From NCBI RefSeq assembly GCF_009734425.1, contig NZ_CP046455.1, forward strand, positions 620,001 through 684,000: a DNA stretch of 64,000 nt. The letters are read 5' to 3'. The translations under genes were made by a program, and so were the position numbers. The DNA comes from Corynebacterium occultum. GTDB lineage: Bacteria; Actinomycetota; Actinomycetes; Mycobacteriales; Mycobacteriaceae. Positions 36,592-40,408 of the stretch are shown here, piece by piece (the stretch's first letter is position 1; every line of letters begins with the position of its first letter). The notes below the pieces were generated by a model, which had not been told where the DNA came from, searched no databases, and saw nothing but the letters and a program-made list of their open reading frames with translations.

Positions 36592-37092
36592 ATGGAACCG
36601 CTCGTCGGACTGATCATGGGTTCGGATTCAGACTGGGACACCGTCGCCCCGGCCGCCGAGGTACTCACCGAATTCCGCGTCCCCTTCGAGGTCGGGGTGC
36701 TCTCCGCACACCGCACCCCGGAGCGGATGCTCAACTACGCCAAGTCCGCCCATGAACGCGGGCTGAAGGCCATCATCGCCTGCGCCGGGGGTGCCGCGCA
36801 CCTTCCTGGCATGGTTGCCGCCGCCACCCCGCTGCCGGTGATCGGTATTCCCCGCGCCCTGAAGGACCTCGACGGCCTGGACTCCCTGCTCTCGATCGTG
36901 CAGATGCCGGGTGGCGTCCCGGTGGCCACCGTCTCCATCGGTGGTGCCAAGAACGCCGGTCTGCTGGCGGTTCGTATCCTCTCCGCCGGCCTGCCGGAGC
37001 TGCAGCAGCGCATGATCGATTACCAGGCCAACATGGCTGCCGAGGTGGAGCAGAAGGATGAGGCGCTGCGTCAGCGTCTGCTCGGCCAGTAG
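36592..37092 (+). CDS. purE: N5-carboxyaminoimidazole ribonucleotide mutase
   Basis: This 166-residue enzyme converts N5-CAIR to CAIR, the step after Pur[13 protein letters not shown] near residue 7, [13 protein letters not shown] near 39 and [22 protein letters not shown] near 67 are class I PurE signatures. AAGGAGAG lies 6 bp before the ATG. The stop overlaps the GTG of the YdcF-like gene by one base. Confidence 0.95.
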
Positions 37093-37538
37093 TGAACCCG
37101 GTTCTGGTGCTGGGAGCCCTGGTTGACGGGGATCGCCCCTCCGCCATCCTGCGGGAGCGGCTGCGCCGCGCACAACCGCTTATCGACGCTGCGGGGGTCG
37201 GCGTCCTCAGCGGCCGCGGGGAAGCACAGGTCATGGCGGACTGGTTGATCGAACACGGCACCGACTCTGGCATCCTCCGACTGGAGAATGCCGCCACCAG
37301 CACCAATGAGAACCTGGAGAACGCCCACGCGCTGTTGCCGGACACCACCTGCTGGACGGTGGTGACCAGTGACTTCCATCTGCTGCGCACCCGGCTGTGG
37401 GCCTGGCACCTGGGCATCCCGGTGGAGGTGGTGTCCGCCCCGACCCCCGGAAGCGCCAGGTTGGCGATGTTCCTGCGGGAGTGTCTGGCGTTACCGCATT
37501 CGGTGCTGCGGGTGGGGTGGCGCAGACTTCTGGGTTAA
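37092..37538 (+). CDS. YdcF/DUF218-family protein
   Basis: This 148-residue protein has the DUF218 pattern: VLVLGALVDGDRPSAILRERLRRA at the N-terminus, LENAATSTNENLENAHAL near residue 67 and TSDFHLLRTRLWAWHLGI near 97. It starts with GTG coupled to the purE stop. There is no membrane segment, unlike longer family members. Its last 48 bp overlap the convergent LLM gene. Function unknown. Confidence 0.82.
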   Translation: MNPVLVLGALVDGDRPSAILRERLRRAQPLIDAAGVGVLSGRGEAQVMADWLIEHGTDSGILRLENAATSTNENLENAHALLPDTTCWTVVTSDFHLLRTRLWAWHLGIPVEVVSAPTPGSARLAMFLRECLALPHSVLRVGWRRLLG

Positions 37539-38837
37539 AGCCCCGAGGTGGGACCTGAGTGTGTCGCCCTCATAGGAGGTGCGGAAACGTCGGCGTTCCT
37601 GCAGCACCGGGACCACCAGGTCCACGAAGTCCTCGATCCCGCTGGGCAGGGCAGGTGGCATCAGGTTGAATCCATCGGCCCCGCCGCCATCCACCCAACG
37701 CTCGATCTCATCAGCCACCTGCTCCGGGGTGCCGATGAAAGTGGCGTGCCCACCACCGGCAGCAAGGTATCCCAGCAGCTCCCGGACCGTGGGGCGGGTG
37801 GTTTCGATGATGCGCAGCACCGTGGCATAACGCCCCTTCGGGCCCCTGAACTCCTCAAGCAGGGGAAGTTCCGGCACCGCCTCATCCAGTTCCCACCCGG
37901 AGGTGTCCTGACCGATGAAGAAGGCCAGTTGATGCAGGGAATCCCCCACGGGGAGCAGCTCATTGAGCTCTCGCTGCTTCTGCCTGGCGGCTGCTTCAGT
38001 CTCCGCGACATAGGTGACCAGGCCGGGCATCACCGTGATCCGATCCGGGTCCCGTCCCAGCGCAGCGGCCCTGCGGTGGATATCCGCACGGTACTCCCGG
38101 GCCATCGTCAGGTCCCAGGCCACGGCGTAGATGCCCTCTGCATGCCGGGCTGCCAGATCCCTTCCGGGTTCCGAGGCCCCGGCCTGGAAGAGCACCGGTC
38201 GGCCCTGGGGTGACTGCGGCAGATTCAATGGGCCAGCCACCCCGAAGAACTCCCCCTCGTGGTCGATGGCCTGCAGCTGGGCGGGGTCTGTGTAGATCCC
38301 GGCACGATCCGCGTGGATCGCATCTCGCGGCCAGGAGTCCCAGAGTTTCTGGATGACCTCGATGAATTCCGCGGCTCGGGCGTAGCGTTCCGGGTGTGCC
38401 GGGAGGTGCTCCATCCCGTGGTTGCGGGCTTCCTCATCGGTCATGGAGGTGACCACGTTGATGCCGGCCCGTCCGCCGGAGATGTGGTCCAGGCTGCCCA
38501 GGAGGCGGGCGGCGTGGAAGGGTTGCCAGAAGGTGCTGGAGATGGTGCTGACCAGCCCGATCTTTGTGGTGGCCCGGGCCATGGCGGTCAGGGTGGTGAT
38601 GGGTTCGAGGAACCAGCCCGGCCCGTTGGCTATGCCCCCGAGCCCGGCGGATTGGCCATCGGCGAGGAATACCGCGTCCAGCAGGCCACGTTCCGCGGTC
38701 TGGGCGAGTTCCTCCCAATAGGAGATGTCACCGAGTTTTTCGATGACCGAGTCAGGGGCCCGCCAGGCGGCGGTGTGATGTCCGGTGGCGAAGGCGAAGA
38801 GGTTGAGGTGGATCTGTTTCTTTTCCGGGGTGCCCAT
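37491..38837 (-). CDS. LLM-class flavin-dependent monooxygenase (NtaA/SnaA/DszA type)
   Basis: This 448-residue protein resembles FMNH2-dependent monooxygenases: IHLNLFAFATGHHTAAWR at the N-terminus, FLADGQSAGLGGIANG near residue 57, VSTISSTFWQPFHAARLLGSLDHISGGRAGINVVTS near 96, and GTPEQVADEIERWVDGGGADGFN near 367. It would need a separate flavin reductase, not seen nearby. It overlaps the SDR stop by one base (ATGA) and lies behind the TPP riboswitch, so it should respond to thiamin. The C-terminus extends 48 bp into the convergent YdcF gene. Substrate unknown. Confidence 0.88.
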   Translation of the reverse strand: MGTPEKKQIHLNLFAFATGHHTAAWRAPDSVIEKLGDISYWEELAQTAERGLLDAVFLADGQSAGLGGIANGPGWFLEPITTLTAMARATTKIGLVSTISSTFWQPFHAARLLGSLDHISGGRAGINVVTSMTDEEARNHGMEHLPAHPERYARAAEFIEVIQKLWDSWPRDAIHADRAGIYTDPAQLQAIDHEGEFFGVAGPLNLPQSPQGRPVLFQAGASEPGRDLAARHAEGIYAVAWDLTMAREYRADIHRRAAALGRDPDRITVMPGLVTYVAETEAAARQKQRELNELLPVGDSLHQLAFFIGQDTSGWELDEAVPELPLLEEFRGPKGRYATVLRIIETTRPTVRELLGYLAAGGGHATFIGTPEQVADEIERWVDGGGADGFNLMPPALPSGIEDFVDLVVPVLQERRRFRTSYEGDTLRSHLGALTQKSAPPHPQHRMR

Positions 38838-39616: not shown

Positions 39617-39702
39617 TGTGCTGCCTTTCTGCTGGTGGCGAGGGGGGAGTCCACCGAGAAGGCACACAGATCCAGGGGAGGGTATGGATATGCGGCAGCG
39701 CG

Positions 39703-39787
39703 GACAGTCCCTTCGCCAGTGCTAACTGGATCAGGTTCAACGGGTGTGTTCTCAGCCATCCTCGGGAAGGCACCCCGTGTCACTGTC
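39703..39787 (-). ncRNA. TPP (THI-box) riboswitch
   Basis: Read on the minus strand, it contains the conserved TPP aptamer blocks in order: CGGGGTGCC, GGCTGAGA, CCCGTTGAACCTGATC and CTGGCGAAGGGA. The ends GACAGT and ACTGTC close helix P1 perfectly. The first gene downstream is the SDR. Between aptamer and start, GCTGCC (39694-39699) can pair with GGCAGC (39620-39625), which includes part of the ribosome binding site, suggesting translational control. Confidence 0.95.
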
Positions 39788-39826
39788 GCGACCATAGCAT
39801 TCAGGTTGTTGTGTTCGTTAAGGAAA

Positions 39827-40408
39827 TCACCCTTCAGGGGGTTGGTTGATGTCGAAGGTGAATTCCATGAAGCGCCCGGACTGTTTCATTTCGGCCAGAT
39901 TCAGGCGCAGGCTTTCCACACGGCGGGGTAGCAGGGGAGCCCCGGAGGGCAGGAATACCGGGGCCATGGTGAAGGTGATGCGGTCCAGGGCCCCGGCGTC
40001 GAGGAACTGGCCGGCCAGTTCGCCGCCGCCCATGATCCAGATATCACCCTCCGGGTTGTATTCGGCGGCTGAGGCGCGGAGCTGGTCCAGGGCGTCGACC
40101 ACGGGACTGTTGATCACCTGGATGTTCAGGCCTTCGGGGATTTCACGTTCCCGGGAGGAGAACACCCAGGTGGGTCGGTCGCCGTAGGTGTCACGCCATT
40201 TTTCGGGGTGGTTGAGCAGGTCCATTTCCTGGCGGATCCACTCATAGGTGGTGGATCCCATCACCAGGGCGGAAACCCCGGCGAGGAAGGTGTCCATCTC
40301 TTGCTCGGCTTCCTCACTGCCGGGGACGTCGAAAAGCCATTGCAGGGAGTTGTGCTCATCGGCGAGGAAACCGTTGAGCGTGGTCGCGGTGTTGTAGATG
40401 ATCGCCAT
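39827..40408 (-). CDS. Dihydrofolate-reductase-like (RibD C-terminal family) reductase
   Basis: This 193-residue protein has the DHFR/RibD-C fold: IIYNTATTLNGFLADEHNS at the N-terminus, MGSTTYEWI near residue 50, VFSSREREIP near 83 and IWIMGGGELAGQFLDAGALDRI near 122. The family reduces pterin- or flavin-like substrates with NADPH, but members such as YyaP/YwjB lack known substrates. It lies 39 bp upstream of the riboswitch on the same strand and probably has its own promoter. Confidence 0.84.
   Translation of the reverse strand: MAIIYNTATTLNGFLADEHNSLQWLFDVPGSEEAEQEMDTFLAGVSALVMGSTTYEWIRQEMDLLNHPEKWRDTYGDRPTWVFSSREREIPEGLNIQVINSPVVDALDQLRASAAEYNPEGDIWIMGGGELAGQFLDAGALDRITFTMAPVFLPSGAPLLPRRVESLRLNLAEMKQSGRFMEFTFDINQPPEG

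Follow-up and report, generated by a model that had tools for sequence, protein, structure and literature searches.

The window, by which we mean the whole 64-kb stretch of Corynebacterium occultum DNA that was analysed, carries on its minus strand a TPP riboswitch followed by genes for an SDR oxidoreductase and an LLM flavin monooxygenase (Table 1). The ATG of the SDR gene (39616) lies 73 nt beyond the end of the aptamer, with an alternative upstream GTG at 39667, and its stop codon ends at 38837, the base at which the ATG of the LLM gene begins; the LLM stop codon ends at 37491. The order SDR then LLM with a one-base overlap, as given in an earlier note on this DNA, therefore agrees with the coordinates (shared base 38837). 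That note had also described the two as the only genes downstream, which is fair, since the next long ORFs (37092-37538 and 36592-37092) both lie on the plus strand.

Table 1. Features of the riboswitch-led SDR-LLM operon, in window positions.
Feature	Position	Strand	Basis
Candidate -10 box, TATGGT	39791..39796	-	read from sequence
TPP riboswitch aptamer (RF00059)	39690..39787	-	cmscan, 63.5 bits, E 4e-10
Expression platform	39617..39689	-	model, folding with either state enforced
Putative anti-SD strand	39666-39657	-	expression platform, folding model
Putative anti-aptamer strand, UCGCC	39641-39637	-	pairs with aptamer GGCGA 39717-39713 in folding model
SD, GAAAGG	39629-39624	-	expression platform
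SDR oxidoreductase, 259 aa	38837..39616	-	NCBIfam NF006393/PRK08642 and Pfam PF13561
LLM flavin monooxygenase, 448 aa	37491..38837	-	TIGR03860 (NtaA/DmoA) and Pfam PF00296

The riboswitch, which had been read by eye from the minus strand, is real. An Rfam covariance search matched the full RF00059 model (positions 1-105) at 39787-39690, and the score, against a gathering score of 54.3 bits, places the element within the family; this was the only over-threshold Rfam match in the whole window. The four aptamer blocks named in the earlier note are present in the sequence, and its closed P1 corresponds to a conserved GAC/GUC in a 37-row alignment of homologous TPP elements and to a longer GACAGU/ACUGUC in the fold of the window aptamer. 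In this alignment, 16 core pairs were kept in 99.0% of cells (a value as high was seen in 0 of 500 shuffles) and five aptamer pairs had both partners changed (a figure reached in 1 of 500 shuffles), so that the 37 elements also belong together by helices kept through compensatory change. The window riboswitch is an ordinary member of the known TPP family, and its counterpart has already been published. Corynebacterial -10 boxes follow the consensus TANNNT, and TATGGT, if used as such a box, may place the RNA start near the first aptamer bases. Upstream on the same strand, 39 bp separate the aptamer from the end of a gene with a RibD_C domain (39827-40408); genes that are DHFR-like or annotated as DHFR were also seen near the pair at locus L041 (6635-7252, by eye) and at the edge of locus L158 (here and below, L numbers denote loci and G numbers genomes).

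Folding of the leader with either state enforced gave a model of how the switch might operate. With the anti-aptamer form enforced (GGCGA paired with UCGCC), the predicted accessibility of the window's Shine-Dalgarno sequence was 0.69, as against 0.16 with the aptamer enforced; the corresponding values for predicted openness were 39% and 14% at L006, and 0.18 and 0.12 at L007, a weak contrast. When folding was unconstrained, the best structure of a 187-nt leader was the aptamer form, and that of a 205-nt leader was the anti-aptamer form, yet with the Shine-Dalgarno bases mostly paired. Based on the openness values of the three leaders (69 versus 16% in the window), a translational OFF switch is plausible rather than proven. 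In the mode that we infer, scarce TPP would leave the leader in its anti-aptamer form, with the Shine-Dalgarno sequence free and SDR and LLM made, whereas bound TPP would close the aptamer and hide the Shine-Dalgarno sequence.

Both proteins are members of the profiles under which they are annotated. The SDR scores 415.1 bits against NF006393 (PRK08642, annotated as a 3-oxoacyl-ACP reductase; cut-off 292), and the FabG-named models listed give it 124-153 bits against cut-offs of 222-332. The nearest solved FabG was matched with a best E of 3e-32, and 3-oxoacyl-ACP reductase is probably a name only. The active-site motif takes the form T...Y...K, with Thr, in all 32 genomes that carry the pair (see below), at the position that we take to be that of the catalytic Ser. 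The LLM scores 512.3 bits against TIGR03860 (NCBIfam cut-off 279.7). Its closest solved relative is YtnJ (PDB 1tvl, E 6.5e-94), and its other relatives in the PDB include a riboflavin lyase (5w48), nitrilotriacetate monooxygenase, DszA, dimethyl-sulfide monooxygenase and EDTA monooxygenase. By membership of this family, the LLM likely uses FMNH2/O2 chemistry.

To define the distribution of the pair, we combined four LLM searches: of 41 genomes of relatives (18 with any match, three with the pair), of 394 genomes of the class (E 1e-130; eight with a match, six with the pair), of 396 genomes from the order to which Kocuria palustris belongs (E 1e-160; 15 with a match, 14 with an SDR) and, by pattern scan, of 84,980 species genomes (65 loci, of which 16, in 15 genomes, had the pair). 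In all, these revealed SDR and LLM side by side in 32 different actinobacterial genomes, hereafter the carriers. In every one of them the pair is preceded by a TPP element, which scores above the Rfam cut-off in 31 and slightly below it, at 51.0 bits, at L036; at L039, L041 and L144 element and pair are separated by other thi genes. An SDR search in 12 further genomes found the pair in two Oceanobacillus, and a plasmid search, in which six regions were examined (20 of 362 matching records were listed), found it in four, from two Pseudochrobactrum, Rhodococcus and Mesobacillus. The riboswitch was above the cut-off at all six of these further loci (Bacillota, Alphaproteobacteria and the Rhodococcus plasmid), and no Rfam TPP element was found in the two plasmid regions that had no pair, those of Streptomyces and Cupriavidus. 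Identity between SDRs of riboswitch-led pair loci falls as low as 46-48%, and a third SDR match in G841 (L153, 41%) has neither an LLM nor a TPP element beside it. What is new here is that the TPP-led SDR-LLM arrangement is conserved in 32 actinobacterial genomes and in Oceanobacillus, Mesobacillus and Pseudochrobactrum; the pair is a conserved TPP-switched cassette, present in three phyla and also on plasmids.

That Pseudochrobactrum, Rhodococcus and Mesobacillus carry the cassette on plasmids (L156, L157, L158 and L159) suggests horizontal transfer. A gene for acetolactate synthase, a TPP enzyme, lies near the cassette at L156 and L157, and Brachybacterium massiliense has the cassette twice on a single contig, the copies facing opposite ways (L043 and L044).

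A phylogenetic analysis was used to ask how the LLMs of the pair relate to other members of their family. Genome duplicates, fragments and weak matches (e.g. L013, L018-L022, L030-L034, L098 and L099) were excluded beforehand, giving 105 loci, and a short match, L097, was dropped to leave 104 rows, which were analysed by a quick method with SH-aLRT support and no bootstrap. A branch with an SH-aLRT value of 99 separates the 37 LLMs of the pair, together with L048 and L008, from all other rows, and the three changes of the pair label on the tree fit one gain and two losses. The rows outside the pair group are other NtaA-family loci; YtnJ, nitrilotriacetate monooxygenase, DszA, dimethyl-sulfide monooxygenase and EDTA monooxygenase themselves are not among the rows. 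A strict TPP motif was found at 34 of the 37 pair loci and at none of the 67 LLM loci classed as having no pair (L048 and L008, inside the pair group, are among the 67); a looser motif was found at 36 of 37 and at three of 67 (L048, L058 and L070). The one pair locus missed by the looser motif, L126, does have a TPP element according to Rfam, which was run on some of the 67 loci as well. LLM relatives outside the group were rejected as members of the cassette, both by their place in the tree and by the absence of the strict motif from the 67 loci. Four such LLMs (L105, L106, L107 and L160) lie beside ABC transporter genes, with neither SDR nor TPP element. The apparent LLM without an SDR in G024 (L008) is not interpretable, because the locus ends its contig, 107 bp upstream (14055 of 14162).

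The gene neighbourhood provides a second line of evidence for a link to thiamin. The pair lies within or adjoining a thi operon in seven of the 32 carriers, a lower bound since loci were read to different distances: as SDR-LLM-thiM-thiE (L038), thiM-thiE-SDR-LLM (L039 and L144), thiY-thiX-thiZ-SDR-LLM (L041) and, with ABC-ATPase matches next in line, SDR-LLM-ykoE-like (L137); at L142 and L143 it is divergent from thiO-thiG-thiF. In the other 25, the references used brought no thi gene to light next to the pair. ThiM, ThiD, ThiG and TenA were named by family models and ThiY by the NMT1/THI5 model; ThiE, ThiO, ThiS, ThiF, ThiX, ThiZ and YkoE (Pfam PF09819) were named by eye and by similarity to proteins of the window genome. 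In Kineococcus (L048), thiO-thiG-thiF is followed by a zinc alcohol dehydrogenase gene (PF08240/PF00107), which has an LLM of the pair clade immediately next to it; a TPP element slightly below the cut-off (53.3 bits) lies at the start of thiO. Here the SDR is replaced, inside a thi operon, by an unrelated alcohol dehydrogenase, which suggests, as far as protein families can indicate, that the partner step of the LLM is an alcohol/aldehyde redox reaction. Near the pair at L038 (7705-8184, minus strand) and L137 (1972-2385), a Nudix gene sits beside thiD behind a TPP element; a possible role for these Nudix genes is the clean-up of damaged thiamin diphosphate. The connection of the pair with thiamin proposed in the earlier note thus has strong comparative support, from TPP elements upstream in 32 of 32 carriers and six of six further loci, and from thi operons in seven of 32.

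Four TPP riboswitches are present in the host genome (99.88% complete); they precede the SDR-LLM pair, thiM with a ThiD/TenA-domain fusion, a ykoE-like gene, and thiE-thiO-thiS-thiG-thiF. The fusion gene, downstream of the TPP-controlled thiM (L148:6413-8662, minus strand), encodes 749 aa with ThiD and TenA matches and, by eye, a ThiE-like N-terminus. ThiG, ThiM, ThiD and TenA are all present in the host genome; ThiC gave no match there and did match in the C. glutamicum control. Because ThiG is present and ThiC has no match, the host, judged by its gene content, should need pyrimidine from outside but produce thiazole itself.

Among the carriers, full-length ThiC is present in 10 of 32 (G431 has only a 45-residue match), leaving the host and 21 others, some of them drafts or metagenome bins, without it. 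ThiD was found in all 32 (in pieces and below the cut-off in G442), which is weak on its own because 14 of 14 control genomes matched too. ThiM was found in 22 (a split gene was counted, and matches below 45 bits were left out), with no carrier genome reaching the curated cut-off of the model, which four of the 14 controls do reach. Full-length ThiG is present in 12 of 18 carriers tested (short matches below 35 bits were not counted), and TenA in 15 of the same number tested (17 of 20 genomes searched), so that the idea of the pair as a replacement for TenA was rejected. Four carriers (G018, G441, G111 and G714) lack both ThiC and ThiM; ThiG is kept in the two of these that were tested, G018 and G441, which would therefore need pyrimidine from outside. 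An association of the pair with ThiC loss, expected beforehand, was also rejected: in the same draw from the order, ThiC is present in two of 14 carriers and 61 of 382 non-carriers (Fisher p = 1.0), that is, absent from 12 of 14 and 321 of 382. As to the substrate, the earlier note had offered a thiamin precursor, a degradation product or an oxidised thiamin; the link to thiamin stands and none of the three is singled out, and the ThiD/ThiM pattern, on gene content, favours a pyrimidine compound as the type of substrate.

Our preferred reading, which we hold tentatively as one that may well be right, is that the pair forms a TPP-repressed two-enzyme operon feeding the pyrimidine (HMP) branch of thiamin synthesis. 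In the scheme that we infer, the LLM would use FMNH2 and O2 to hydroxylate, in an HMP-type pyrimidine bearing a leaving group X, the exocyclic CH2 carried by C5; X might be an amine, a thiol, a sulfonate or the thiazolium of damaged or cleaved thiamin. Expulsion of X would give 4-amino-5-formyl-2-methylpyrimidine, which the SDR would reduce to HMP; ThiD would then phosphorylate HMP, and ThiE would join the pyrimidine to the thiazole. Sulfite cleaves thiamin to a pyrimidine sulfonate, and candidate substrates would be this sulfonate, an aminomethyl-pyrimidine and the pyrimidine-nucleophile adducts of thiaminase I. Such adducts left by thiaminase I have been termed HMP* (PMC5627462). By analogy, the LLM family includes enzymes that oxidatively cleave C-N and C-S bonds, which we count in favour, and alkanesulfonate monooxygenases yield an aldehyde and sulfite (PMC8234197). 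TPP repression, if real, fits supply and not catabolism for food. Counted against feeding of the pyrimidine branch are that substrate specificity in this monooxygenase family is not readable from sequence, that the window's SDR-LLM operon contains no flavin reductase gene, that no thi gene adjoins the pair in the window, that TenA, usually present, already salvages HMP, that ThiC is lost no more often in carriers than in other genomes of the order draw and is kept by 10 of the 32, and that one carrier, G439, has the opposite pattern, with ThiC and no full-length ThiG.

The same neighbourhoods bear on an unlikely alternative, in which the pair would act on the thiazole side, returning an oxidised or modified hydroxyethylthiazole (e.g. 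the aldehyde or acid) to hydroxyethylthiazole for use by ThiM. This would suit the presence of thiM inside the pair operon at L038, L039 and L144, the thiazole-synthesis genes that are divergent from the pair (L142 and L143) or precede the LLM (Kineococcus), and the gene content of G439. However, use of the product would require ThiM, which went undetected in 10 of the 32 carriers, the ThiG-keeping G018 and G441 among them, and ThiXYZ and ykoC-F, relatives of which partner the pair at L041 and L137, are putative systems for the uptake of HMP or degraded thiamin (PMC5627462).

It is quite unlikely that, instead of supplying a precursor, the pair serves to remove or mend damaged thiamin or antivitamins (compounds resembling oxothiamin, thiochrome or bacimethrin). 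The inferred repression by TPP would shut such a function off when thiamin, and hence its damage, is plentiful, and the transporter genes in the L041 and L137 operons suggest that a compound is taken up and used. These points are set against the Nudix and thiD genes behind a TPP element near the pair at L038 and L137, oxo- and oxythiamin diphosphate being cited in PMC5627462 as compounds on which Nudix hydrolases act, and against the suitability of a monooxygenase and a reductase for degradation.

Distinctly improbable, in our view, is that TPP merely reports the state of the cell to enzymes working outside thiamin metabolism, for example on sulfur compounds or fatty acids. The database names (3-oxoacyl-ACP reductase and NtaA/DmoA monooxygenase) would fit such a role, as would the lack of an adjoining thi gene in the window and of a detected one in 25 of 32 carriers, and the ABC transporter genes beside some LLM relatives outside the clade (L105-L107 and L160). 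Yet the pair is linked to thi genes in seven of 32 carriers and in Kineococcus, the strict TPP motif separates 34 of 37 pair loci from 0 of 67 others, and the SDR is far from solved FabG and has Thr at its presumed catalytic Ser position in every carrier. Finally, a de novo route to HMP that needs no ThiC, although compatible with the want of a full-length ThiC in the nearly complete host genome and 21 further carriers, is most improbable given that ten carriers do have ThiC, that genomes with neither ThiC nor the pair are common in the order, and that the only metabolite we know to lie two such steps from HMP is a ready-made pyrimidine.

Feeding of the pyrimidine branch by the pair would have wider consequences. 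To our knowledge, the source of pyrimidine in cells that lack ThiC is often unclear, and many bacteria are concerned, with no ThiC match in 333 of the 396 genomes drawn from one order. Perhaps, though we hold this with more reserve than the role in the HMP branch itself, the compact TPP-switched cassette is a third, oxygen-dependent source of the thiamin pyrimidine beside ThiC synthesis and TenA hydrolysis, in which the LLM would cut HMP-CH2-X to the aldehyde and the reductase would convert this to HMP. If true, an oxidative route under TPP control would add to the breakdown products of vitamin B1 that cells can use, and would explain a published orphan TPP riboswitch in the industrial organism C. 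glutamicum.

In C. glutamicum, the LLM gene downstream of the riboswitch-led gene cg0825 is, we assume, cg0823, and our literature search found no paper joining cg0823 with thiamin. The riboswitch itself is not new, since the TPP leader of cg0825, found by RNA-seq, was published as an orphan in 2013 (PMC3890552, PMC4046766). Its bit score was 63.54, its observed 5' end fell within the predicted aptamer by 3 nt (742,651 versus 742,654), and the authors found it 'attractive to speculate' on a role for cg0825 in thiamine-dependent processes (PMC3890552). As in the window, the leader precedes a short-chain oxidoreductase gene on the minus strand, and the window SDR is presumably the ortholog of cg0825, given the same kind of gene and a nearly equal riboswitch score. 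Unlike our account of the pair, the passages on cg0825 in these reports name the first gene alone, with no LLM partner, wider conservation or function. Among the matches listed in our literature searches on riboswitches, thiamin and the pair, this gene is the subject of the two C. glutamicum papers alone, and none of the papers listed assigns the pair a function. A thiamin-regulated oxidoreductase was reportedly named 'oarX' by Rodionov in 2002, and that work may contain an earlier notice of the pair or of its SDR; a literature search for 'oarX' found no paper, and the main text of the survey PMC3766115 contains no oarX, oxidoreductase or monooxygenase.

Other known systems resemble the cassette in part. 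The window LLM is of the same family by sequence as YtnJ and the nitrilotriacetate, DszA, dimethyl-sulfide and EDTA monooxygenases, which have functions outside a thiamin-type role, and as the riboflavin lyase of PDB 5w48, which we take to be RcaE. RcaE is an FMN-dependent riboflavin monooxygenase that oxidatively removes the side chain from a ring nitrogen of the vitamin (PMC12746152), a reaction like the side-chain removal considered here. It differs from the TPP-led LLM in being catabolic and acting on riboflavin, and is described in the relevant part of that paper without mention of a riboswitch. Closest in purpose to the role that we prefer for the pair, the feeding of HMP into thiamin synthesis, are YlmB and TenA, which with ThiXYZ uptake make up a TPP-controlled system for the salvage of HMP from base-degraded thiamin (Jenkins 2007, cited in PMC5627462). 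Both would combine TPP-controlled enzymes and uptake in the recovery of HMP; the YlmB/TenA route is hydrolytic, whereas the SDR-LLM route would employ a monooxygenase and a reductase, usually in genomes where TenA is present as well.
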